Origin: Polyangia bacterium | Lineage (GTDB): Bacteria > Myxococcota_A > Polyangia > Fen-1088 | DNA length: 64,000 nucleotides | Assembly (NCBI GenBank): GCA_036268875.1 | Contig: DATATI010000029.1 | Location: 186,001-250,000, forward strand | Direction of reading: 5' to 3' | Shown here: positions 37,149 through 47,786 of the stretch, one piece after another | Layout of the letters: every line of letters starts with the position of its first letter | Position numbering within the stretch: the first letter of the stretch is position 1 | The notes under the pieces: model-generated | The model's input: the letters and a program-made list of their open reading frames with translations, nothing else | The model's database searches: none | Told to the model about the DNA's origin: nothing | Translations under genes and position numbers: made by a program

Positions 37149-37216
37149 TCACGATGGCGCAGCGGCGCTTGCCTAAATTGCCCGGCGCCCACTCACTTTC
37201 GGCCAGGAGCTTGTTC

Positions 37217-38770
37217 ATGCATCGATCCCTGTTCCGGTTGCTGTCCTTGACGTTGGTGCCGGCGGCGATGTGGTCGTGTTCAAGCGGCGGTGGAGGTGGC
37301 GGCGGGGGATCCGGCGGCAGCGGCTCGGCCGGGGCCAGCGCGACCGGCAGTGGCGGCACGTCCGGCGGCAGCGGCGGCGCGTCCGGCAGCGGCGGCACGT
37401 CGGGTGGCAGCGGCGGGGCGACGATGGGCTCGGGCGGCAGCAACGTCGACGGAGGCGGCCAACCCGATACCGGGAAAACCGACGGCGGCGGCACCGGCGG
37501 CGGCACCGACGGCGGCGGCACCGGCGGCACGATGGCGGCGAACACCGGGCAGATGTTCGGCTCGCACAAATTCCAGTATCCGGCCGGCACCATCAAACCC
37601 AGCGCCGCCAACCTCGACGCCGCGGTGGCCGCGTTCTACGACAAATGGAAGGCGGCCTACGTGGTCAGCGATTGCGGCGGGGCCTATATCGCCACCGGCG
37701 GCGGCACCGGCGCCATCGCCAACACGGTCGACGTGTCGGAAGGCCAGGGCTACGGGATGGCCATCGTGCCGATGATGGCCGGCCACGATCCGAACGCGCA
37801 GAAGACCTTCGACGCTCTCTACGCCGTCTATCACATGTTCGGCAGCATCAACGATCCCAACCTGATGTCGTGGAGCATTCAGGAAGGCTGCATGGTCCCG
37901 CACGGCAACGGTGACATCAACGATTCGGCCACCGACGGCGACATGGACATCGCCTACGGCCTGGTGCTGGCCGATCGTCAGTGGGGCAGCGCCGGTGCCA
38001 TCAATTATCTGGCCGAGGCCAAGAAGATCATCGGATCGATCAAGGCCCACGAGGTCAACCCCACCACCAACATCATGATGATGGGCGACTGGTCGGACAT
38101 CAAAGCGCCGTATTACACCGTCCGCTATATGTCGATGGACGGGCCTTACGGAGGCGATCAGCCCTTCGCGAATTTTTATTACGGGACCCGCCCGTCGGAT
38201 TTCATGATCGATCACTTTCGCGCCTACGCCCGCGCCAGCGGCGACCAAAGCTGGATGGCGGTGGTCGACGCCACGCACACCCTGGTGAAGAAACTGGAAG
38301 ACGGCTTCGCTTCCAGCACCGGCCTGCTGCCGGATTTCGTCGAGCACTTGGACACCAATCCAACCCCGGCGATGGCCAATTACCTGGAGAGCGAAGCCGA
38401 TGGTCGCGTGGGCTACAACTCGTGCCGCGTGCCGTGGCACCTGGCGACCGACTATATCGTGTCGGGCGACGTCCGGGCCAAGACCGAGGCGCAGAAGATC
38501 ACCACCTGGATCAAGGGCAAGACCGGCTCTGATCCCACCAAGATCGTCGACGGCTACGAGCTCAACGGAGCCAACGCCGGTACCGGCAAGGTCTTCGCCT
38601 TCGAGGCGCCCTTCGGCGTGGCCGCCATCGTCGATGCCTCCAACCAGGCCTGGCTGGACGCCATCTGGAAGGACATGGTCACCAACAGCACAGGCACCGT
38701 CAGCTACTACGACGACTCGATCAAGATGCTGTCGATCTTGATCATGTCGGGCAACTGGTTCGCGCCGTAG
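37217..38770 (+). CDS. Secreted GH8-family glycoside hydrolase (endoglucanase-like) lipoprotein
   Basis: 517 residues from ATG 37217 (AGGAG seven bases upstream). Signal peptide with Cys at SCSS suggests lipid anchoring. An 80-residue Gly/Ser/Thr linker precedes a GH8 catalytic domain with VSEGQGYGMAI (general acid Glu), ATDGDMDIAYGLVLAD (catalytic Asp) and the SCRVPWHLATDY motif. GH8 enzymes cut beta-1,4-glucans, chitosan or xylan. It sits beside the TonB-ExbBD-receptor operon, convergent with exbD. Linkage to uptake is inference. Confidence 0.9.
   Translation: MHRSLFRLLSLTLVPAAMWSCSSGGGGGGGGSGGSGSAGASATGSGGTSGGSGGASGSGGTSGGSGGATMGSGGSNVDGGGQPDTGKTDGGGTGGGTDGGGTGGTMAANTGQMFGSHKFQYPAGTIKPSAANLDAAVAAFYDKWKAAYVVSDCGGAYIATGGGTGAIANTVDVSEGQGYGMAIVPMMAGHDPNAQKTFDALYAVYHMFGSINDPNLMSWSIQEGCMVPHGNGDINDSATDGDMDIAYGLVLADRQWGSAGAINYLAEAKKIIGSIKAHEVNPTTNIMMMGDWSDIKAPYYTVRYMSMDGPYGGDQPFANFYYGTRPSDFMIDHFRAYARASGDQSWMAVVDATHTLVKKLEDGFASSTGLLPDFVEHLDTNPTPAMANYLESEADGRVGYNSCRVPWHLATDYIVSGDVRAKTEAQKITTWIKGKTGSDPTKIVDGYELNGANAGTGKVFAFEAPFGVAAIVDASNQAWLDAIWKDMVTNSTGTVSYYDDSIKMLSILIMSGNWFAP
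37280..37530 (+). repeat. Gly/Ser-rich low-complexity linker coding repeats
   Basis: Irregular short repeats of GGCGGCAGC/GGCACG type encode (GSGG), (TSGGSGG) and (GTDGGG) units between the lipid anchor and the GH8 domain. It is a flexible linker typical of myxobacterial surface lipoproteins. Confidence 0.75.
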
Positions 38771-38788: not shown

Positions 38789-39268
38789 TCAGCCGCCGGC
38801 GGGGAACATCGCCGGGTCGGGCGGATCGGTGGCGAAGCCCAGCGTCTCGGCACCGGCTTGCTTGGCGCCGTCGATGACGGCGATCAGCTTGGCGTAGTTC
38901 AATTCGTCCTCGGCGACGATGAACACCGTTCGGTCGTTGGGACCGTGGGCGTCCAGGCGCGCCTTCAACTTGTTGATGAAGTCCGCCTCGGTCACCGAAT
39001 CCGCGTTGATGCGCATCTGGCCGGCGCGGTTCACGTACACCACCAGCTGATCGGGCGGCACTTCAGTGACCTCCTCGACCTTTTCGCTGCTGGGCGTGCT
39101 GACCGGGATGTTCTTCTCCAAGAGCGGCGTCACCACCATGAAGATGATCAGCAACACCAGCACCACGTCGACCAGCGGCGTGACGTTGATGTCGCTGTTG
39201 CGCGCGGCGGGTGGCCGCACATAAAGCCGCTTTACCGAACCTTGCCTGTGATGATGACCCAACCGCAT
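38789..39268 (-). CDS. exbD: ExbD/TolR-family biopolymer transport protein (second copy)
   Basis: 159 residues. One helix with the conserved proton-pathway Asp (DINVTPLVDVVLVLLIIFM), periplasmic domain after. Last gene of the operon. The TM segment is nucleotide-identical at 67/69 positions to that of the neighbouring exbD, while the rest diverges. With ExbB it energises TonB. Confidence 0.93.
   Translation of the reverse strand: MRLGHHHRQGSVKRLYVRPPAARNSDINVTPLVDVVLVLLIIFMVVTPLLEKNIPVSTPSSEKVEEVTEVPPDQLVVYVNRAGQMRINADSVTEADFINKLKARLDAHGPNDRTVFIVAEDELNYAKLIAVIDGAKQAGAETLGFATDPPDPAMFPAGG
39126..39194 (-). repeat. 69-bp near-identical segment shared by the two exbD genes (copy 1)
   Basis: This copy encodes the TM helix core (INVTPLVDVVLVLLIIFMVV region). 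It matches 39596-39664 at 67 of 69 bases, differing at 39131 and 39180 versus 39601 and 39650. The flanks are not similar at DNA level. Confidence 0.85.
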
Positions 39269-39288: not shown

Positions 39289-39702
39289 TTACTTTTTGAT
39301 CTCTTCGATGGCCAGCTCGACCGCGCGAGCGCCCGCCTTCTTGGCGTGGTCCATGACCTTGCGGACATCGCCGACGGTGACCGACTGATCACCCTTCAGC
39401 AGCACGCGGCGGTTCGGTTCCTTGCTCAGCTCGGCGGCCAGCTTGGTCTCCAGCGCGTCTTCCTGAAAACCGACGCTCTCCACCCACAGCTTGTGATCGG
39501 CGGTCACCGAGACCACCAAAGGATCGCCGTTCTTCTCTTCCTTGGTCAGCTTGTTGGCCTTGGGCAGGTGCACGTCCTTGCCACGCTGGAGCATGGGCGT
39601 GACCACCATGAAGATGATCAGCAACACCAGCACCACGTCGACCAGCGGTGTGACGTTGATGTCGTTTTTGACTCCTCGGGAGGAGCCGCCCGTCATCGCC
39701 AT
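39289..39702 (-). CDS. exbD: ExbD/TolR-family biopolymer transport protein (first copy)
   Basis: 137 residues. DINVTPLVDVVLVLLIIFM helix with conserved Asp, then a periplasmic domain (VTADHKLWVESVGFQED, VLLKGDQSVTVGDVRKVMDHAKKAGA). It follows exbB by 6 bp. Together with the second ExbD it could form a heterodimer in the ExbB5D2-type motor. Confidence 0.93.
   Translation of the reverse strand: MAMTGGSSRGVKNDINVTPLVDVVLVLLIIFMVVTPMLQRGKDVHLPKANKLTKEEKNGDPLVVSVTADHKLWVESVGFQEDALETKLAAELSKEPNRRVLLKGDQSVTVGDVRKVMDHAKKAGARAVELAIEEIKK
39596..39664 (-). repeat. 69-bp near-identical segment shared by the two exbD genes (copy 2)
   Basis: Partner of 39126-39194; offset 470 bases, same orientation, 67/69 identity. 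Confidence 0.85.
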
Positions 39703-39708
39703 GACGAA

Positions 39709-40404
39709 TTACCCGTGGCGAACCGCGGCCGGGCGCCCGCTGTTGGACTTCAACTGGCGGGCCACGATGTCCAGAAGCTCGTTCGACGATTCGGCGATGT
39801 CCACCGTCACGCCGTCGACGAAGCCTTGGAAATAGTTGTAAATCATGACCGCCGGGATGGCGACCAGCAGACCGAAGGCGGTGGTCACCAATGCCTCGGC
39901 GATACCGGCGGACACCGTGCCAAGACCGCCCGACCCGGAGGCCGCCATGGCCTGGAACGAGTTGACGATACCGACCACCGTGCCCAGCAGACCGACGAAC
40001 GGCGCCGTCGACGACACCGTCGCCAGCAGGCCCTGGCCGCGACGCAGGTTCTGCATCTCGCGCTGGCCTTGACGTTCCAGCGAACGCGCCACCGATTCGA
40101 AGATCAGCTCGGGGTCGTCCTGACCGCTTGCCCGGTACGTCGTCAGGCCGGCCATGATCACCCGACCAAGGTGTCCGACCTCGGCGCCCGGCTGCATGCT
40201 GGCGGCGGCGTTCAGGTCACGCTTGGCCAGCAACGGTCCCACCACGTGGGCGAAGGCGATGGATGCCTTCTTGGACTTGCGGAAGGCCAAGAACCTTTCA
40301 CAGGCCACCAGCAGCGACGAGACCGACATGATGGCCAGCGCCCCGACCACCAGCCGGGCGAACAGGCCCATGTGGGCCCAAAGATCGTACAGTGTGAATT
40401 GCAT
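39709..40404 (-). CDS. exbB: MotA/TolQ/ExbB proton channel protein
   Basis: 231 residues with three helices: LFARLVVGALAIMSVSSLL; LLATVSSTAPFVGLLGTVVGIVNSF; ALVTTAFGLLVAIPAVMIYNYF. The conserved TAPFVGLLGTV motif and the Thr/Glu-containing helices match ExbB/TolQ. In the middle of the TonB operon, 41 bp after tonB. Confidence 0.95.
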   Translation of the reverse strand: MQFTLYDLWAHMGLFARLVVGALAIMSVSSLLVACERFLAFRKSKKASIAFAHVVGPLLAKRDLNAAASMQPGAEVGHLGRVIMAGLTTYRASGQDDPELIFESVARSLERQGQREMQNLRRGQGLLATVSSTAPFVGLLGTVVGIVNSFQAMAASGSGGLGTVSAGIAEALVTTAFGLLVAIPAVMIYNYFQGFVDGVTVDIAESSNELLDIVARQLKSNSGRPAAVRHG

Positions 40405-40445: not shown

Positions 40446-41144
40446 TTACGGCGCCTTCACGGTGACTGGAATGACCATCTCGACCTGCACCGGATGTCCC
40501 TGGAACATGACCCCGGAATCGTAACGCCACTGCTTGTGCAACATGTCCAGGATGGACTGGTCCATGTGTGGCAGCCCCTTGATGATGCGACAGTTCGTCA
40601 GCGTTCCATCCACTTTGACAATGCACTTTACCAGCGCCGTCCCCGACACTCTCAGCGCCAGGGCCTCCTGGTTGTAAATCGGGGACGGGCGGTTCGAAAT
40701 CGTCGGCCGGACCATGCCGACACCGAACGGAATCGTGCTGCCCAGCGATCCGCCGACGACGCCTCCCACCACGCCGCCCGCCACGCCGCCTTTCACGCCG
40801 CCCTCGACACCCGCGGGATCCGGCTCCTCCTGGGGCTTTTCGTGCTCCTGCGGCTTGGGTGATTCCTTCTTGGTCGTCTGGACAACGGTATCGGGTTTCT
40901 TGATGACCTTCTTGTGCTCGACCTTTGGCTTGGTCACCGCACCCCCACCGGCCGGCGGAGGCGGCGGAGGCGGCGGTGGGTTGAACAGCATCACCTTGCG
41001 GGTGTTCTTCTTGTCCTCTTCGTGCGGACGCGACGAGATGTACAGCGCCAGCGCGATGACGGCGACGTGCGCCGTGAACGACAGGATGGCGCCCTTGCCT
41101 ATCTGCCGCCGCGGGACGTTATGCGCGAGAACCGAATCGAACAT
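40446..41144 (-). CDS. tonB: TonB-family energy transducer
   Basis: 232 residues. N-terminal helix (GAILSFTAHVAVIALALYI), Pro-rich stretch (NPPPPPPPPPAGGG), Lys/Pro/Glu region (KVEHKKVIKKPDTVVQ), Gly/Val linker and a C-terminal TonB domain (IYNQEALALRVSGTALVKCIVKVDGTLTNCRIIKGLPHMD). TonB transmits proton-motive-force energy to outer-membrane receptors. It follows the lipoprotein gene on the same strand, with receptor and motor genes either side. Confidence 0.93.
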   Translation of the reverse strand: MFDSVLAHNVPRRQIGKGAILSFTAHVAVIALALYISSRPHEEDKKNTRKVMLFNPPPPPPPPPAGGGAVTKPKVEHKKVIKKPDTVVQTTKKESPKPQEHEKPQEEPDPAGVEGGVKGGVAGGVVGGVVGGSLGSTIPFGVGMVRPTISNRPSPIYNQEALALRVSGTALVKCIVKVDGTLTNCRIIKGLPHMDQSILDMLHKQWRYDSGVMFQGHPVQVEMVIPVTVKAP

Positions 41145-41219: not shown

Positions 41220-42341
41220 TTACTGAGGGATGTGCGTATCTCCCGGATCCAGCACGCACTGCTGACTGTCGGTGTCGCACAACGAGTAGATGGCGTTCTT
41301 GTTCTTGAAGGTCGGCTTGTCACCCTCGGTGTCCCAGTCCGGCTGTGGGATGCCGTTCTGCGGATCATGACAAAGGTCGTTGCTGGGCTTACCACAGTCG
41401 TCGGAGCACGCCACCGACGGGGCGATCCCGCGGAAGGTGTACTTCGCCACGCAGGTCGCGGCGCCGTTGAACTGGGTGTACGTCAGCTCGCCGGCTACCA
41501 TGCTGCCGGTGAGAGCGGCGTTCACGAAGAAGCGCAGGTTGGCGAAATCGTATTTGACGTGAATCGGGTCGAACACCTGCGGTGCGGTGTCATCGCCGGG
41601 AGGCGGCGGGACGCACATCCCGCCATCGTCACCGCCACCGGCGTCGGTCGACGCGCCGACGTCAGTCGACCCGCCGGCGTCGTTGGAGGCGCCAGCATCC
41701 GTCGCGGCGTCCTTCGCGGCGTCCGTGGCGACGCCGACATCGGCGTCTGTGCCACCATCGGTGCCGCCGTCAAGATCGGCGGCCGAAGTGGCACCGTCGT
41801 CACCACCGCCGTCATCGTCACCGGCGCCGGCATCGTCGGGCGGGGACGGCGTGATGGTGAAGCCTTTGTCGTACTGAACCTCGGCTGCACTCAGCGTCTT
41901 GACGGTACAGATGTCCTGGCTGTTCGGAAACTGGGTGTCGAACTTTCCGAACGCGTACGGTTTGTGATTCGGGTCGGTGTCCGTTGCCGGCATGTCGGCG
42001 TTGGGCGCATTGGTCGCGTAGTTGCCGGTTTCGAACGGCTGGATGGCCAGCGAGGTTTTACCGTCAGATGAAACCCGCGGATCGTTGAAGTACGGCTGCA
42101 TGCCAAACACCTGCACGCTCTCCGCGCCATCAAAACGGGTATCGCAGTCGCCGGTGCCCATCTTCGATCCCTGGACGAACGTCAACTTGACGTTGAAGTC
42201 ATTGGCTTCCGGCGCACAAGTGACTCGCCGTTGCGTACAACCGGCGTTGGCCACCGTCAGCAGTCCCAATGACAGCAGCGCGGGAAAGATTAAGCCTGGT
42301 TTTGTCACGACATTTTCCCCTGTCTTAGCCACAGCGTTCAT
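41220..42341 (-). CDS. Asp/Gly-rich lipoprotein co-encoded with the TonB-dependent receptor
   Basis: 373 residues from ATG 42341. Signal peptide ends with lipobox-like ANAGC, so it is lipid-anchored. A central low-complexity part of about 70 residues is Asp/Gly/Ala/Thr-rich. N- and C-terminal globular parts hold Cys pairs (RVTCAPE, ICTVKTL, CSDDCGKPSNDLC, SQQCVLDPGD). No family is recognised. It lies between the receptor and tonB with 17 and 75 bp gaps. By analogy to SusD-like systems it could be a surface partner of the receptor, but it has no SusD sequence; this is inference. Confidence 0.8.
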   Translation of the reverse strand: MNAVAKTGENVVTKPGLIFPALLSLGLLTVANAGCTQRRVTCAPEANDFNVKLTFVQGSKMGTGDCDTRFDGAESVQVFGMQPYFNDPRVSSDGKTSLAIQPFETGNYATNAPNADMPATDTDPNHKPYAFGKFDTQFPNSQDICTVKTLSAAEVQYDKGFTITPSPPDDAGAGDDDGGGDDGATSAADLDGGTDGGTDADVGVATDAAKDAATDAGASNDAGGSTDVGASTDAGGGDDGGMCVPPPPGDDTAPQVFDPIHVKYDFANLRFFVNAALTGSMVAGELTYTQFNGAATCVAKYTFRGIAPSVACSDDCGKPSNDLCHDPQNGIPQPDWDTEGDKPTFKNKNAIYSLCDTDSQQCVLDPGDTHIPQ

Positions 42342-42358: not shown

Positions 42359-45300
42359 CTAGAACGTCCACCGGGCGCCGAATCGAAAGGTGCGCGGATT
42401 TGAATAGGCAGTCGGTTTGCCGTAGTTCTGAACGTCGCCGGGGGTCTTCACGTCGACCGCGCCCATCATCGCGCCGTCCGCATAAACCGGGGTCAGCTTG
42501 ACGCCCTTCTGGGGAATAGCACAGGACCCACCCGCGCCGGTGGCGCTGAAACAAACGTTCTGGGTCGTATAATTCTCCTCGGTCTCGGTGATGTTCTGCA
42601 GGTTCAAGAAGTTGAAGACGTTGATCTCCACCGAAAGGGCGTGGTTCTTGTTGAGATACAGCGTGTACCCGGCCTGCAGATCCGCGGAGTAGTCCCAGGG
42701 AACGCGAGGTCCGGTGCCTCGCTGTTGAATGAACGCGAAACCAAGGCCGTAGTCGGGATCGGCGCCGAGAGGGGTCGTCGGTTGCCCCGAGTGGGCGCGG
42801 ATCGCGATGCCGGTGCTGATGTGGTGTCGCGCGGCCACGACCCACTCCTTGGCGCCAAAGATCTTGATGCTGTGACGCTGATCGTTGGGGAGGTAACCGT
42901 CGCGGTTGATGGTCAGGCCCTTGGTGTCGAAGTCGGCGGTGTGGTTCGGAATCAGCGCGCCGTCCTGGCTGATGAGGCCGCCGATGTTGCCGCGCAGCCA
43001 CGACAGCGTATAGCTGGCGTTCAGCAACCAGTTGTCCCGGAAGTTCTTCACGAACTGCAGTGTGAAGGCGTCGTAGTCGCGCTTTGCCTTGGCAAAGTCC
43101 GAGGCGACGCCTTCGCCGGGGTTACCGAGAAAGAACGTCTGCAAGCCATCGCGGCTCATGTCCTCGACCACGTCGCCCATCCAGCGCTTGGTATAGGTCA
43201 GCGATGCGCGCAGGTCGGACATGATCTCGTAGTCAGCGCCGGCCACCACTTCGTGCTGGGACTGCGGCTTCAAGTTGGGATCGATCGGACTGGCTCCGGC
43301 GCCGAACGCCACGTACTTCTGGTTCGGGTTGGTGGCGTTGCCTTGCACCTGCGCCACCGATTCGGTGAGGCAGCCTTTGGGACTGGCCACGATCTGCGCC
43401 GGGCCGCAGTTGCTGCTGTAGTTGGCCAGTGTGTGAGGCTCGCCGCTGAGCGCGACGTCCGCCAGATCCAACGGGACGTTTTCGTAATACTTGGCGTAGT
43501 TGATAAAGATCTTGGAACGACCAGACTGCGTCGGATCGTAGATGGCGCCGAGGCGCGGCGACCATTGATTCGGCAGCACCAAACCCAGTTGACCACCGTC
43601 GGCATAGAGTGCCTGCGTGTCATACCGAACGCCCAGGTTCACGGTGAACTTGTCGACGATGCTCCAGCTATCCTGAATGAAGCCACCGACGATCAACGAC
43701 TGTGTCTTCAGCGTTCGACCGTCCAGACCGAGCGGCGTATCCGGCGCGGTGAGAACACCGAACCGAAACTGATCCCCGATGGTCCCGTCGTCGTTCTCCA
43801 GGTACTGGCGACCACCGCTGTACGATTTGGTGTGCGAGTAGTCGGTGAACTCCAGGCTGAACCCGGCCTTGGCGATGTGGTGGCCAAGGCCCTGGGCCAG
43901 GAACGTCAGCGTGCTGCCGACCTGGTAGCGGTCATATTTCTGCGCGTCCTGCTCGCCTGGGCCGTTCGAATTGTACTGCGGGCTGACCGGACACAGCACC
44001 GTCGTTGCGCCGCCGCCGATGCACATCCCCTGATTTCGCAGCGTCGGGTCCAGGTCCGGCAGGTTGTGGCCCGCGTTGATCCACTGGATGGTCGGAATGT
44101 TCGCCAGCGCATTCGGATTTGAAGAGTTGATCTGCGAACCGTCGCTGGGTAGCAGAGTTTCAGATTGATGATGCCAACCGAGCAACGTCTCCACCGTCAC
44201 ATTCTTCTTGGGCGATTCTGTGGTCCACCGCAAGGTCGCGTCGTAGGGATTCGAGCTGAACCGGTGCGCCATCGACTGCAGGGTGCCGCCGTTGCTGTCG
44301 GTGCTCACTTCCGGTTGCCCGTCGCGCGGGTTGATGCCGTACTGGTTGGAAGCACCGCTGCTGCTGGGCAGGGCGGAAAAGGTCGCGACGAAGCGGTTGC
44401 TGGGATTCGCTGCGTAGGTCAATTTGCCGAACGCCTGCTCGGTCTGCAGGATGGCGTCGTTGTGGGTGGTGTTGCCGGGCACCTCTTCGGTCTGCGTGAA
44501 CCCATTCTTCATGATCGGGTTGCCGGCAGCGTCGGTCTGGATGCGGTTCACCGACCGGCGGATGTCGTACGACGTTTGCGAGATGTTCAGGCCCACGTAG
44601 AACCACAGCTTGTCCTTGACCAGCGGGCCGCCGAGATCGAAGCCCACGTCGCCTTCGTAGTTCAGCTTCGGCTGGAACAAAACCGACTGCCCCTCGCGCG
44701 GGACGGCGTGGCGGGTGCCTTCCAAGGCGCCCGGGCTGTAGTTAAAGTACGCGCCGCCGTGGAAGTCATTGGTGCCGCTCTTGGTGACGGCGCTGATCAC
44801 GCCGCCCGTCGACCGGCCGTACTCGGGCAGATAACCGCCGGTGACGACGTTGATCTCACCGACGAATTCGGACGACAACGGGGTGCCCGAGATGCCGAAG
44901 CCCGGGTTGTTGGTGCTGAGACCGTCGATGATGAAGCTGTTCTCGGCCGCGCTGGCGCCGTTGATCGACGTACCGAAGCCAGAGTTGTCGTCGGCGGCGC
45001 CGGCCGCGGCGCTGGCCACCGACTCGAAGGAACGCGACGCCGAGCCCTTGCCGCCCGGCGCCGAAACAGGGACGCGACGGGTGAACTCGGAGTTCAGGGT
45101 GGCGCCGGTCGAGCTGGAACCGACGTCGACGGTCGGGGCACGCGCCACGACGACCACTTCTTCGGCTTGCAGGGCCTCCGGAAGCAACTCGGCGTTCAAT
45201 CGGATGGTCGTATCAGAGCGCAGCGAGATCCCGTCGCGGGCCAGCGGTTTATAGGCTTCCTTGTCGAAACGCAGCGTATAGGCGCCCGGGGGAAGGGTCG

Positions 45301-45535
45301 GGATCCGGTAGAACCCGGACGAATCCGTGACCACTACCTGCTCACCTTGCAGGTTGGGGGACGTCGCGGTCACCACCACATCGGCGACCGGCGCTTTGGT
45401 CGCGGCATCGGTGACGGTACCCGTCAAGGTGCCTTCCCCTTGCTGGGCTTGGGCTGACCGGGCCAGGAAAAGGCCCGCGGTCACGGAGCAAACAATGAGG
45501 CCAAGGCGGATTTTTTTTACTGAAAAGATGGTCAC
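42359..45535 (-). CDS. TonB-dependent receptor with carboxypeptidase-regulatory-like N-domain
   Basis: 1058 residues from GTG 45535, with GGGAG five bases upstream; a longer open frame runs upstream without signal. A signal peptide (LGLIVCSVTAGLFLARSAQA) precedes a CarboxypepD_reg-like domain (GTLTGTVTDAATKAPVADVVVTATSPNLQGE), a plug (SFIIDGLSTNNPGFGISG, YGRSTGGVISAVTKSGTNDFHG) and a 22-strand-type barrel ending in ...RFGARWTF with a terminal Phe. No TonB box was identified by eye. Substrate unknown. It is the first gene of the six-gene operon. Confidence 0.93.
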   Translation of the reverse strand: MTIFSVKKIRLGLIVCSVTAGLFLARSAQAQQGEGTLTGTVTDAATKAPVADVVVTATSPNLQGEQVVVTDSSGFYRIPTLPPGAYTLRFDKEAYKPLARDGISLRSDTTIRLNAELLPEALQAEEVVVVARAPTVDVGSSSTGATLNSEFTRRVPVSAPGGKGSASRSFESVASAAAGAADDNSGFGTSINGASAAENSFIIDGLSTNNPGFGISGTPLSSEFVGEINVVTGGYLPEYGRSTGGVISAVTKSGTNDFHGGAYFNYSPGALEGTRHAVPREGQSVLFQPKLNYEGDVGFDLGGPLVKDKLWFYVGLNISQTSYDIRRSVNRIQTDAAGNPIMKNGFTQTEEVPGNTTHNDAILQTEQAFGKLTYAANPSNRFVATFSALPSSSGASNQYGINPRDGQPEVSTDSNGGTLQSMAHRFSSNPYDATLRWTTESPKKNVTVETLLGWHHQSETLLPSDGSQINSSNPNALANIPTIQWINAGHNLPDLDPTLRNQGMCIGGGATTVLCPVSPQYNSNGPGEQDAQKYDRYQVGSTLTFLAQGLGHHIAKAGFSLEFTDYSHTKSYSGGRQYLENDDGTIGDQFRFGVLTAPDTPLGLDGRTLKTQSLIVGGFIQDSWSIVDKFTVNLGVRYDTQALYADGGQLGLVLPNQWSPRLGAIYDPTQSGRSKIFINYAKYYENVPLDLADVALSGEPHTLANYSSNCGPAQIVASPKGCLTESVAQVQGNATNPNQKYVAFGAGASPIDPNLKPQSQHEVVAGADYEIMSDLRASLTYTKRWMGDVVEDMSRDGLQTFFLGNPGEGVASDFAKAKRDYDAFTLQFVKNFRDNWLLNASYTLSWLRGNIGGLISQDGALIPNHTADFDTKGLTINRDGYLPNDQRHSIKIFGAKEWVVAARHHISTGIAIRAHSGQPTTPLGADPDYGLGFAFIQQRGTGPRVPWDYSADLQAGYTLYLNKNHALSVEINVFNFLNLQNITETEENYTTQNVCFSATGAGGSCAIPQKGVKLTPVYADGAMMGAVDVKTPGDVQNYGKPTAYSNPRTFRFGARWTF

Positions 45536-45833
45536 GAGGTCTCCCGCAGACGTGTGATGGTTTGAGCGCCCCCGTCTGCGATGCCTTGCAGCCGTCGTTG
45601 CTCGCCGGACACCATTGCCTTTTTTCCCGGACGAGGACGGAGTTTCTTGAGGTGAAGGTGAACTGTCAAGCGGGCCTATCCCACCCCCGAAGAATAAATA
45701 CAACTTCGAGCCGAATGATCGATCGCCTGGGCATCGGATCGCCCCGGTTTGGGGGCCCAATTGCCGCATCCACCGCATACGAATGCCGCTTTTTTTCGGT
45801 CGAATGCGGCGTCGAGGGCGGCAAAGGATTACG
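45536..45833. other. Intergenic region between the receptor and the DUF4091 gene
   Basis: 298 bases between divergent genes. It holds a TTGACA-type -35 for the receptor operon (45641-45669 feature), A/T-rich patches around 45695-45720 and a TTTTTT run near 45790. No gene or repeat is visible. Confidence 0.6.
45641..45669 (-). promoter_or_regulatory. Possible promoter of the TonB-receptor operon
   Basis: Minus-strand -35 TTGACA (45669-45664, perfect match), 17-base spacer, weak -10 GAAACT (45646-45641, 3/6). It would give a leader of about 100 bases. A stronger -10 is not seen nearby. Confidence 0.4.
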
Positions 45834-47786
45834 GTGGCGGCGGTGAAAATCCGCGCCCGATCAGGCTGGCCAATTTCGGTAGCTGCCCTCACCTGGTTAG
45901 GCTGCCGATTGGCGTGGGCGGGTGGTCCGCCGGGTGCGCAGGTCGTGATCGTCGACGATGAAATCCGCGTGCGCCGCGACGACCAGCAGACTGCCGTCGC
46001 GACCGGACAGGTCCTACCCCTTGCCGACGGACGGGTGACGCTGACGGCGCTGCGCGGAGAGACGGTCGCCTTCCAGGTAATCATTTTCGATCAAAGCCCG
46101 CTCCCGGGCGCGGCCGCGATCGCGGTTGCTCCGTTCGCCGACCCGAGCGGACCGCGGGTCGAGCTGTGGCGGCAGCATTTCGTCACCGTCCAAGAACGCT
46201 CCCGTAACGAACGCCGGCCCGACGAATCCCTCGGTTGGTCTGCGGGCGCTCGCGCACCGGACGACGCCATGTTGGGCGAGGTACCGGACGCACTGATCCC
46301 GTTGACCATCGACGATCGCCCGCGCCCGTCGTCGACCTGGGAGGCCTTCTGGGTCGATCTGTTCGTGCCGGAAGCGGCGACGCCCGGGCCGCACGCGACC
46401 ACCGCCAGCGTCACGGTGGGCGGCGCGCTGAGCGCCCGCTTCACCCTCGCCGTGGACGTCAAGGCGGCCGTGCTTCCCTATCGCGCGGTCAGCGCGTTTG
46501 CCTTTTACGAACCCGCGCGTCTGGAACAACGGATCGGCGACGGCCCGGCAGCCGAACGTCAACTGTGGCAGCTTCTGCACGCCCATCACCTCGACGCCCT
46601 GGCACCGCTGACGGCGGTCGCCGACGTCGATCGGCTGGCGGACGTTTTCAGCGGCGCTTTGTTTTCTGCCGAGCAAGGCTACGCCGGCCCCGGGATGCAT
46701 CAGCCGCCCGCGGTGGCGGCGCTGGGTGCGTACGGACAGCTCGGTGATCCGACGCCGGCGACGATCGCAACAGTGCGGACGATGGTTGAAAGGCTGGCGC
46801 GACTGGCGCCGTCATCGAGCGACGCCACCCATGCGGCGGCTCCGGAGCTGTTTCTCTATGCCGTCGACGAAGACTGCGCCAGCCCACGCGCCGCCGACTG
46901 GAAGAAGGCGCTGGGCGGGCTCGCCCTGGCCCTGCCCGTGGCGGTGGGCCAGACCTGTGCCCAGCCGCCCGCGCAGCAAGCGGCCGACGTGGCGTTGATT
47001 CCGGGACCGTCATTCACGCGCGACCTGGTCGGCGCCGCGCGCGCCGCTGGCCGACGCGCCTGGATCTACAACGGCGCGCTGCCACGCACCGGAACGCTGC
47101 TGCTGGACGCTCCGCCGCGCGGCTTGCTGGTGAACGGCTGGATCGCCGCCCTGACCGATATCGACCGCTGGTTCTACTGGGAAAGCACGTTCTGGAATGA
47201 CGACAACCCAGGCGGACACGGCGCCGTCGATCCGTTCGTCAACCCGGCCACCTTTCACAATCGCGACGGCGACACGGCGCTGGGCGACGGGCTGCTGGTC
47301 TATCCGGGACGCCAGCGTGCGCCGTTCGCTGGCGATTCGTTCGGGTTCGCCGGCGTGTTTCCCTCGCTGCGGCTGAAGCTGATCCGGCGCGGCATCGAAG
47401 ACGCCGGCTATTTGATCCTGGCCGCGCGCGAACACCCGGTCGAGGCGACGCGCATCGCCGCGCAAGCCGTGCCCGCCCTGATGGACGAAGCCGCCGCCGA
47501 TCAACCGGCCTCGTGGGACGCCGCCACCGACGAGGGCCGCCCGCGCTTTGCCCGCGCCCGCGCCGCCCTGGGGGCGCTGATTGCCCGTGGCGATCCCCTG
47601 ACCGCTGATCAACGCGCCCGCATCGTCGAACGCCTGGCCCGGCAGAGACGCGCCGAGGTGCCGGTGGCGCTGACCCGCCGCCAGCGCTGGTCCCGAACCG
47701 CCGCGGGTGCCGCCGCGCTGGCGGTGGGGCTGATTGCCTTCGCGCTGGTGGTGGGCCGCGCCCGCCGGGGACGCGCGCGCGCCTGA
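45834..47786 (+). CDS. DUF4091 / GH123-like protein with C-terminal membrane anchor
   Basis: About 650 residues from GTG 45834 (AAGGA upstream). Signal peptide (SVAALTWLGCRLAWA), N-terminal beta domain (GETVAFQVIIFD), middle region and a C-terminal DUF4091 segment with FPSLRLKLIRRGIEDAGYLILA. The family contains glycoside hydrolase 123 enzymes acting on N-acetylgalactosamine glycans, but the catalytic Asp-Glu pair of GH123 was not clearly found. The C-terminus ends in one helix plus an Arg-rich tail (VVGRARRGRARA). Divergent from the receptor operon, so possibly co-regulated. Confidence 0.75.
   Translation: MAAVKIRARSGWPISVAALTWLGCRLAWAGGPPGAQVVIVDDEIRVRRDDQQTAVATGQVLPLADGRVTLTALRGETVAFQVIIFDQSPLPGAAAIAVAPFADPSGPRVELWRQHFVTVQERSRNERRPDESLGWSAGARAPDDAMLGEVPDALIPLTIDDRPRPSSTWEAFWVDLFVPEAATPGPHATTASVTVGGALSARFTLAVDVKAAVLPYRAVSAFAFYEPARLEQRIGDGPAAERQLWQLLHAHHLDALAPLTAVADVDRLADVFSGALFSAEQGYAGPGMHQPPAVAALGAYGQLGDPTPATIATVRTMVERLARLAPSSSDATHAAAPELFLYAVDEDCASPRAADWKKALGGLALALPVAVGQTCAQPPAQQAADVALIPGPSFTRDLVGAARAAGRRAWIYNGALPRTGTLLLDAPPRGLLVNGWIAALTDIDRWFYWESTFWNDDNPGGHGAVDPFVNPATFHNRDGDTALGDGLLVYPGRQRAPFAGDSFGFAGVFPSLRLKLIRRGIEDAGYLILAAREHPVEATRIAAQAVPALMDEAAADQPASWDAATDEGRPRFARARAALGALIARGDPLTADQRARIVERLARQRRAEVPVALTRRQRWSRTAAGAAALAVGLIAFALVVGRARRGRARA

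Follow-up and report, generated by a model that had tools for sequence, protein, structure and literature searches.

The stretch of DNA analyzed here (the window, 64,000 nucleotides) encodes a lipoprotein that is co-encoded, co-inherited and co-diverging with an adjacent TonB-dependent receptor. We think this lipoprotein is probably dedicated, as a partner subunit, to one subfamily of Oar-like TonB-dependent receptors. Very probably, the receptor and the lipoprotein work as one two-part device for uptake or export. By analogy with better-known systems it is plausible that the lipoprotein is a surface-exposed capture subunit.

A lipoprotein gene between an Oar-like receptor gene and tonB

The window comes from a 6.15-Mb draft genome. 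On its minus strand the genes run in the order receptor, lipoprotein, TonB, ExbB and two copies of ExbD, with 17 nt between the receptor and the lipoprotein and 75 nt between the lipoprotein and TonB (Table 1). The initial annotation had placed a lipid-anchored protein between a receptor and tonB, and our analysis bears this out for a predicted lipoprotein of 373 residues. Its open reading frame starts at the ATG at 42341, behind a Shine-Dalgarno-like GGGTGAG at 42351-42345, and its GC content by codon position (0.61/0.49/0.77) is similar to that of its neighbors. Because homologues are present in 43 other genomes of the class, it is not a chance reading frame. The close spacing suggests that the receptor and lipoprotein genes share one transcription unit. 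Scanning the window for promoters and terminators gave results at chance level, and no Rfam family was found within it at gathering scores.

Table 1. Coordinates of the lipoprotein, its parts and the genes of the receptor operon within the window
Feature	Coordinates	Strand	Basis
Oar-like TonB-dependent receptor (CarboxypepD_reg, weak plug, barrel)	42359..45535	-	GTG start inferred
Partner lipoprotein gene (LIPO), 373 aa	41220..42341	-	ORF call and homologues
Predicted lipoprotein signal peptide, residues 1-34, before lipidated Cys35	42240..42341	-	Cys35 in 63/63
N-terminal half of predicted beta domain, residues 47-163	41853..42203	-	DSSP, pLDDT, relative's model
Asp/Gly/Ala linker predicted to be disordered, residues 166-248, in the loop joining strands 5 and 6	41598..41846	-	Model and alignment
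C-terminal half of predicted beta domain (strands 6-8), residues 255-306	41424..41579	-	Models
C-terminal Cys-rich segment, residues 307-373 (C312, C324, C355, C362)	41223..41423	-	Alignment, relative's model
TonB	40446..41144	-	PF03544, 4.5e-9
ExbB	39709..40404	-	PF01618, 1e-33
ExbD, first copy	39289..39702	-	PF02472, 3.6e-25
ExbD, second copy	38789..39268	-	PF02472, 7.6e-26

The receptor, which likely starts at the GTG at 45535, matches PF13620 (2.5e-17), PF25183 (4.6e-22) and PF00593 (1.7e-13) in Pfam, and its plug matches PF07715 at E 0.01, under the cut-off for that family. We therefore group it with the Oar-like receptors, which combine a CarboxypepD_reg domain, a plug and a TonB-dependent barrel, with the plug under its cut-off. 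The operon is flanked on one side by a GH8-family protein with a Gly/Ser-rich linker (37154-38770) and on the other by a GH123-like protein (45783-47786), whose match to PF13320 falls exactly at the cut-off. We considered a carbohydrate uptake locus and rejected it, as these two flanking genes belong to no cluster common to at least four genomes when neighboring reading frames of at least 100 residues that pass a GC3 filter are clustered.

Distribution of the pair and its confinement to one receptor subfamily

Searching with the single window protein gave matches in 13 of 144 genomes, its own included. Matches in three genomes (G020, G036 and G059) lay mainly in the linker, at loci with neither a receptor nor a lipoprotein match, and a later profile search missed those genomes. 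We built the profile on an alignment of twelve members from eleven genomes (A1), which are 26-31% identical to the window protein and have cysteine, glycine, proline and aromatic positions in common. This profile found the lipoprotein in 44 of the 317 genomes of the class. A draw across the whole phylum gave 12 of 377 genomes, one of them (G476) outside the class, and a larger profile (A2) returned the same count. The frameshifted copy in G138 (L120) was left out of A2 and A3, and a copy in G210 (L159) out of A3. A scan of a sequence collection with the single protein found no relatives; with the profile it found seven loci, all from Myxococcota, the named ones being Nannocystis and Enhygromyxa. 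N. exedens belongs to the Polyangia within the Myxococcota (NCBI taxonomy), and phyla beyond the Myxococcota were covered by this profile scan only. Within the window's own taxonomic family, the lipoprotein and the close receptor are both absent from all 17 other genomes searched, which means that this genome either gained the module or is alone in having retained it.

The initial annotation saw no SusD-like or known lipoprotein domain and proposed a profile search, which agrees with it. The window protein reaches no Pfam cut-off, none of the 63 members searched has an accepted Pfam match (nothing better than E 0.003), twelve members have no accepted match in NCBIfam, and a sequence search of the PDB found no match for the family. 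A single hit to PF24052 ("Phage_lipoprotein", E 0.011, under the cut-off, in one of the 63 members) was taken as noise. By these sequence comparisons, the lipoprotein family is unnamed in Pfam and NCBIfam. Additionally, a search of titles and abstracts in literature mostly outside subscription papers found no published account of the pair.

Of 68 rows, one was a duplicate (L178) and one the other fragment of the frameshifted L120; this leaves 66 lipoprotein copies, and 64 of these adjoin an Oar-like receptor gene, 61 directly 3' of it and three directly 5'. Five lipoprotein matches (G282:C167, G301:C992, G301:C895, G286:C209 and G284:C75) fell outside the neighborhood reading; adjacency at G282:C167 and G301:C895 was read from match coordinates. 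Across 58 receptor-first pairs the gap between the genes ranges from -22 to +43 nt. In the reverse comparison, when two candidates were scored per genome and a close receptor was defined by E of at most 1e-120, close receptors occurred in 43 of the 317 genomes of the class, and all 43 are among the 44 that carry the lipoprotein; in the 44th (G241) the lipoprotein gene adjoins a receptor fragment. At the level of loci, 53 of 60 close receptors have an adjacent lipoprotein. The initial annotation had asked whether adjacency is conserved and named, as the finding that would count against it, receptor orthologues that mostly lack the lipoprotein. For close orthologues this is not what we see. It holds only if every Oar-like receptor is counted, since receptors in this wide sense occur in 50 of 59 relatives at E 1e-3, mostly without the lipoprotein. 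Because they are so common, the lipoprotein marks a subfamily and not the whole receptor class.

The seven close receptors without an adjacent lipoprotein are two each in G279 and G280 and one each in G281, G247 (C38) and G210. Those in G279, G280 and G281 are five receptors from one genus, and the one in G210 is cut by a contig end. Beyond these seven, at least two full-length tandem paralogues also lack it; tandem close receptor paralogues without the lipoprotein are seen at L169 and L172, from one genus. Two lipoprotein copies, both in G210, lack an adjacent receptor, and some adjacent receptors are broken: a 149-residue fragment in G241, split reading frames in L144 and one stop in G221. 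These exceptions count against a dedicated partner role, as do the many wider Oar-like receptors that lack the lipoprotein.

In a midpoint-rooted receptor tree, one side holds all 61 paired receptors and the other holds 20 of the 29 unpaired receptors; the remaining nine are nested among the paired receptors, seven of them from a single genus. The deepest branch on the paired side is a long one, formed by three loci (L157, L164 and L165) from three genomes of one genus, in which the order is inverted and the lipoprotein gene precedes a shorter, divergent receptor gene. The two genes have thus remained together through a rearrangement. Distances in the lipoprotein and receptor trees correlate (r 0.81 over 61 pairs, omitting the G138, G210, G241 (L148) and second G280 (L179) copies), but the nearest neighbor is identical in only 41 of the 61. 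In 13 genomes that carry two or three pairs, the observed agreement (r 0.889) was reached by none of 2000 within-genome partner shuffles (mean 0.47, maximum 0.856), which indicates that pairs duplicate and move as units. Genes of one operon may, however, co-diverge simply because they are inherited together, with no contact between their products. Taken together, adjacency in 64 of 66 copies, co-occurrence in 43 of 43 genomes, co-divergence and the survival of the pair in both gene orders strongly support the earlier suggestion that the lipoprotein is a functional partner of the receptor.

Besides the receptor, the lipoprotein, Ton components and antisense shadow reading frames, no gene cluster recurs near the pair in more than nine genomes. 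A Pro/Ala-rich protein of about 250 residues ending in GRF lies 3' of the pair in nine genomes of one family (seen downstream at L019, L020, L022, L023, L025 and L059), and two copies that were scanned have no Pfam match. The window's own genome also contains a second TonB-ExbB-ExbD-ExbD locus (L180:710-8028, on G000:C34). There, a 356-residue lipoprotein of an unrelated family (Big_5, E 3.4e-5) is encoded directly 5' of another Oar-like receptor, and the genes after this receptor look by eye like ComM and RecA. L071 has a similar order, and L072 has a related lipoprotein. Oar-like receptors may thus come with one of several unrelated lipoproteins.

Sequence features and predicted fold of the lipoprotein

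The signal of the window protein ends in TVANAG before C35. Asparagine at -3 is atypical for a lipobox, while the cysteine itself is invariant in the 63 aligned sequences. From this residue the window protein reads C-T-Q-R-R-V-T-C and the family mostly C-x-Q-P-x-x-x-C, with glutamine at +3 in 53 of 63 sequences and proline at +4 in 49. According to the available text of a study of lipoprotein sorting in Myxococcus xanthus, lysine at +2 specifies the inner membrane and alanine at +7 the matrix (PMC3222651). Both are rare in this family (4/63 and 2/63), and under these rules this speaks against retention in the inner membrane and against export to the matrix. The family is therefore predicted to be sorted to the outer membrane.

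Conservation is high for nine cysteines (35, 42, 66, 145, 297, 312, 324, 355 and 362), each found in 56-63 of the 63 sequences; C243 and C316 of the window protein are not conserved. The conserved core of the family consists of eight of these cysteines, beyond the lipidated one, and a confidently predicted beta domain, and the linker is variable. The initial annotation was correct that an Asp/Gly/Ala linker is present: it spans about 83 residues (166-248), of which 20 are aspartate, 20 glycine and 16 alanine, with pLDDT of 42-51 over residues 171-240. Its prominence as the headline feature did not hold up. The corresponding loop between strands 5 and 6 varies from 8 to 102 residues (median 22) among 62 sequences, which led us to reject the Asp-rich linker as a defining functional element. 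Several other copies have Gly/Ala/Asp, Gly/Glu or Asp runs of their own at this site. The linker of the window protein exemplifies a loop expansion that has recurred in the family. The loop is net acidic in 58 of the 62 sequences, a minor trait of the family.

In the model of the window protein, 151 residues have pLDDT above 90 and the linker is disordered. A relative from the Enhygromyxa locus (229 residues when mature) is predicted with a mean pLDDT of 96.1 and a pTM of 0.90. Its model has about eight main strands. A helix lies between the third and fourth of these, the linker maps to the loop from strand 5 to strand 6, and the Cys-rich C-terminal segment adds two short strands. The initial annotation had treated the N- and C-terminal parts as separate domains. 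Instead, both lie in one predicted domain, as two halves with the linker in a loop, and we rejected the two-domain arrangement. The lipoprotein is thus predicted to be one lipid-anchored all-beta domain with eight conserved cysteines.

Structural comparison places this domain only loosely. No match with an E value of 0.001 or less came from Foldseek or from a viral fold library. Nitrophorin 7 was the top Foldseek match (E 4.7e-3, TM 0.23-0.26), and other high-ranking matches were likewise lipocalin-type or similar barrels, including nitrobindin and a polyisoprenoid-binding protein; fHbp, NHBA and the TbpB C-lobe ranked lower in the list than nitrophorin 7 and nitrobindin. VIA-align returned Z scores of 5.7-7.8, a range common for this tool, to PagL, Cap15, OmpW, OmpA, streptavidin and designed barrels, with streptavidin at about 6. 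NHBA and fHbp, at Z 5.9, were no better than unrelated barrels. In these models, the fold resembles an eight-stranded, calycin-like beta-barrel of uncertain kinship. The structural matches include OmpA, OmpW and PagL, and we considered a small transmembrane barrel. This is unlikely, as strand 4 and the pieces of strand 5 are only 4-6 residues long by DSSP, which is short for crossing a membrane.

Known receptor-lipoprotein systems and the role of the pair

In the SusC-SusD and RagAB systems of Bacteroidota, the receptor gene is followed by a lipoprotein gene, the order seen here. SusD is helical and TPR-like, whereas the model here is mainly beta and no SusD model in Pfam matches any of the 63 members. 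BtuG, the partner of BtuB in Bacteroides, is a seven-bladed beta-propeller. So, according to the available text of PMC13142918, is XusB, the non-SusD surface lipoprotein that pairs with XusA, a Bacteroides receptor with an N-terminal carboxypeptidase-like domain. The likeness to our pair lies in this receptor domain and in a lipoprotein other than SusD. In contrast to the XusB and BtuG propellers, the domain here is much smaller, and the about eight main strands of the 229-residue model are too few for seven blades.

TbpA-TbpB, LbpA-LbpB and HpuB-HpuA of Neisseria likewise combine a TonB-dependent receptor with a lipoprotein. In the available texts, the lipoproteins of all three contain an eight-stranded beta-barrel (PMC7857515, PMC5449769), and in TbpAB and HpuAB it is this lipoprotein with its barrel that binds the target, acting together with the receptor (PMC7857515). 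The family described here differs in having a single small domain, many cysteines and an Oar-like receptor, and in occurring in soil bacteria and not in host-restricted pathogens. No TbpB- or fHbp-type profile in Pfam matches the 63 members, and no such chain appeared in the PDB sequence search; a single-sequence search found no solved receptor. By analogy, the best-supported description of the pair is a bipartite TonB-dependent system like TbpAB, HpuAB and XusAB in principle, with an unrelated lipoprotein family.

On this model, the lipoprotein would be sorted to the outer membrane, exposed at the surface and seated on its receptor, with the conserved cysteines forming four disulfides. Only about 12 residues separate the lipidated cysteine from the first strand, and most members have a second cysteine at +8; the domain would therefore be expected to lie directly against the membrane. 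Counting strands suggests that three loops would point away from the membrane: the one with the linker, the one with the helix and the one between strands 1 and 2. The variable acidic loop would thus face outward. The lipoprotein would capture or present a ligand, and the TonB-energized receptor would import it. Sequence change is faster in the lipoprotein than in the receptor (median distance ratio 1.53), which weakly suits a ligand-facing part. The nearness of Ton genes to 26 of the 61 pairs also fits this model.

The pair might instead be an exporter, in which the receptor exports a protein and the lipoprotein acts as an accessory or surface gate. We regard this as unlikely overall. It is a serious alternative because the Oar protein of M. 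xanthus, which has the same CarboxypepD_reg, plug and barrel architecture and an associated Ton gene set, secretes the protease PopC, and because the features that distinguish export from import are not known, as the available text of PMC6434023 describes; that text describes no such lipoprotein with Oar, and the likeness to our receptor is one of domain architecture. The lack of any widespread gene cluster beyond the Ton components leaves no uptake pathway in view, but it reveals no widely common cargo gene either, and the same architecture includes the importers SusC (PMC6434023) and XusA (PMC13142918), again by the available texts. A more specific form, in which receptor, lipoprotein and Ton proteins make up a TonB-powered secretion device with the barrel lipoprotein as its dedicated outer gate or escort, has in our estimate a low probability. 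We know of no earlier export system of the Oar-type receptor kind with a lipoprotein subunit, and such a device, if true, would be the first.

It is similarly improbable that the lipoprotein faces the periplasm from the outer membrane and aids receptor assembly or couples the receptor to TonB. Ton genes do lie within 6.5 kb of 26 of the 61 pairs, a count made on stretches of which some are too short to show them. At nine of the 26 the Ton genes follow the pair in the same orientation, which is the window's arrangement, and at 17 they are upstream and divergent; TonB, ExbB and ExbD are all in view at 16. Disulfides would also form in the periplasm. Against this arrangement stand the variable low-complexity loop, the faster evolution of the lipoprotein and the close receptors that have no adjacent copy.

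We consider it distinctly improbable that the lipoprotein is the receptor's cargo, flipped or exported to the surface, the task that Slam performs for TbpB. The pairing is kept in both gene orders, as this reading would allow, and Slam (PF04575) was found in 0 of 23 genomes searched, a search that was equally silent in the controls (0/14). However, we know of no TonB receptor that moves a lipid-anchored cargo. Finally, a bystander lipoprotein carried in the operon without a functional link is very improbable. In its favor, some receptor paralogues lack the lipoprotein, and the 17 other members of the window's family that were searched have neither it nor the close receptor. Against it, the lipoprotein gene adjoins a receptor gene in 64 of 66 copies, the pairing is kept in both gene orders, and partners are specific within genomes.

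We therefore return to the dedicated partner subunit as the probable role of this lipoprotein. Known cases of TonB transport aided by a lipoprotein come mainly from Bacteroidota and host-adapted Proteobacteria. A pair conserved in the Polyangia, with an unrelated lipoprotein family and receptors of Oar architecture, would extend this principle to another phylum of soil bacteria. What separates importing from exporting TonB receptors is a question posed in the available text of PMC6434023, and the receptor-lipoprotein pair offers a handle on it.
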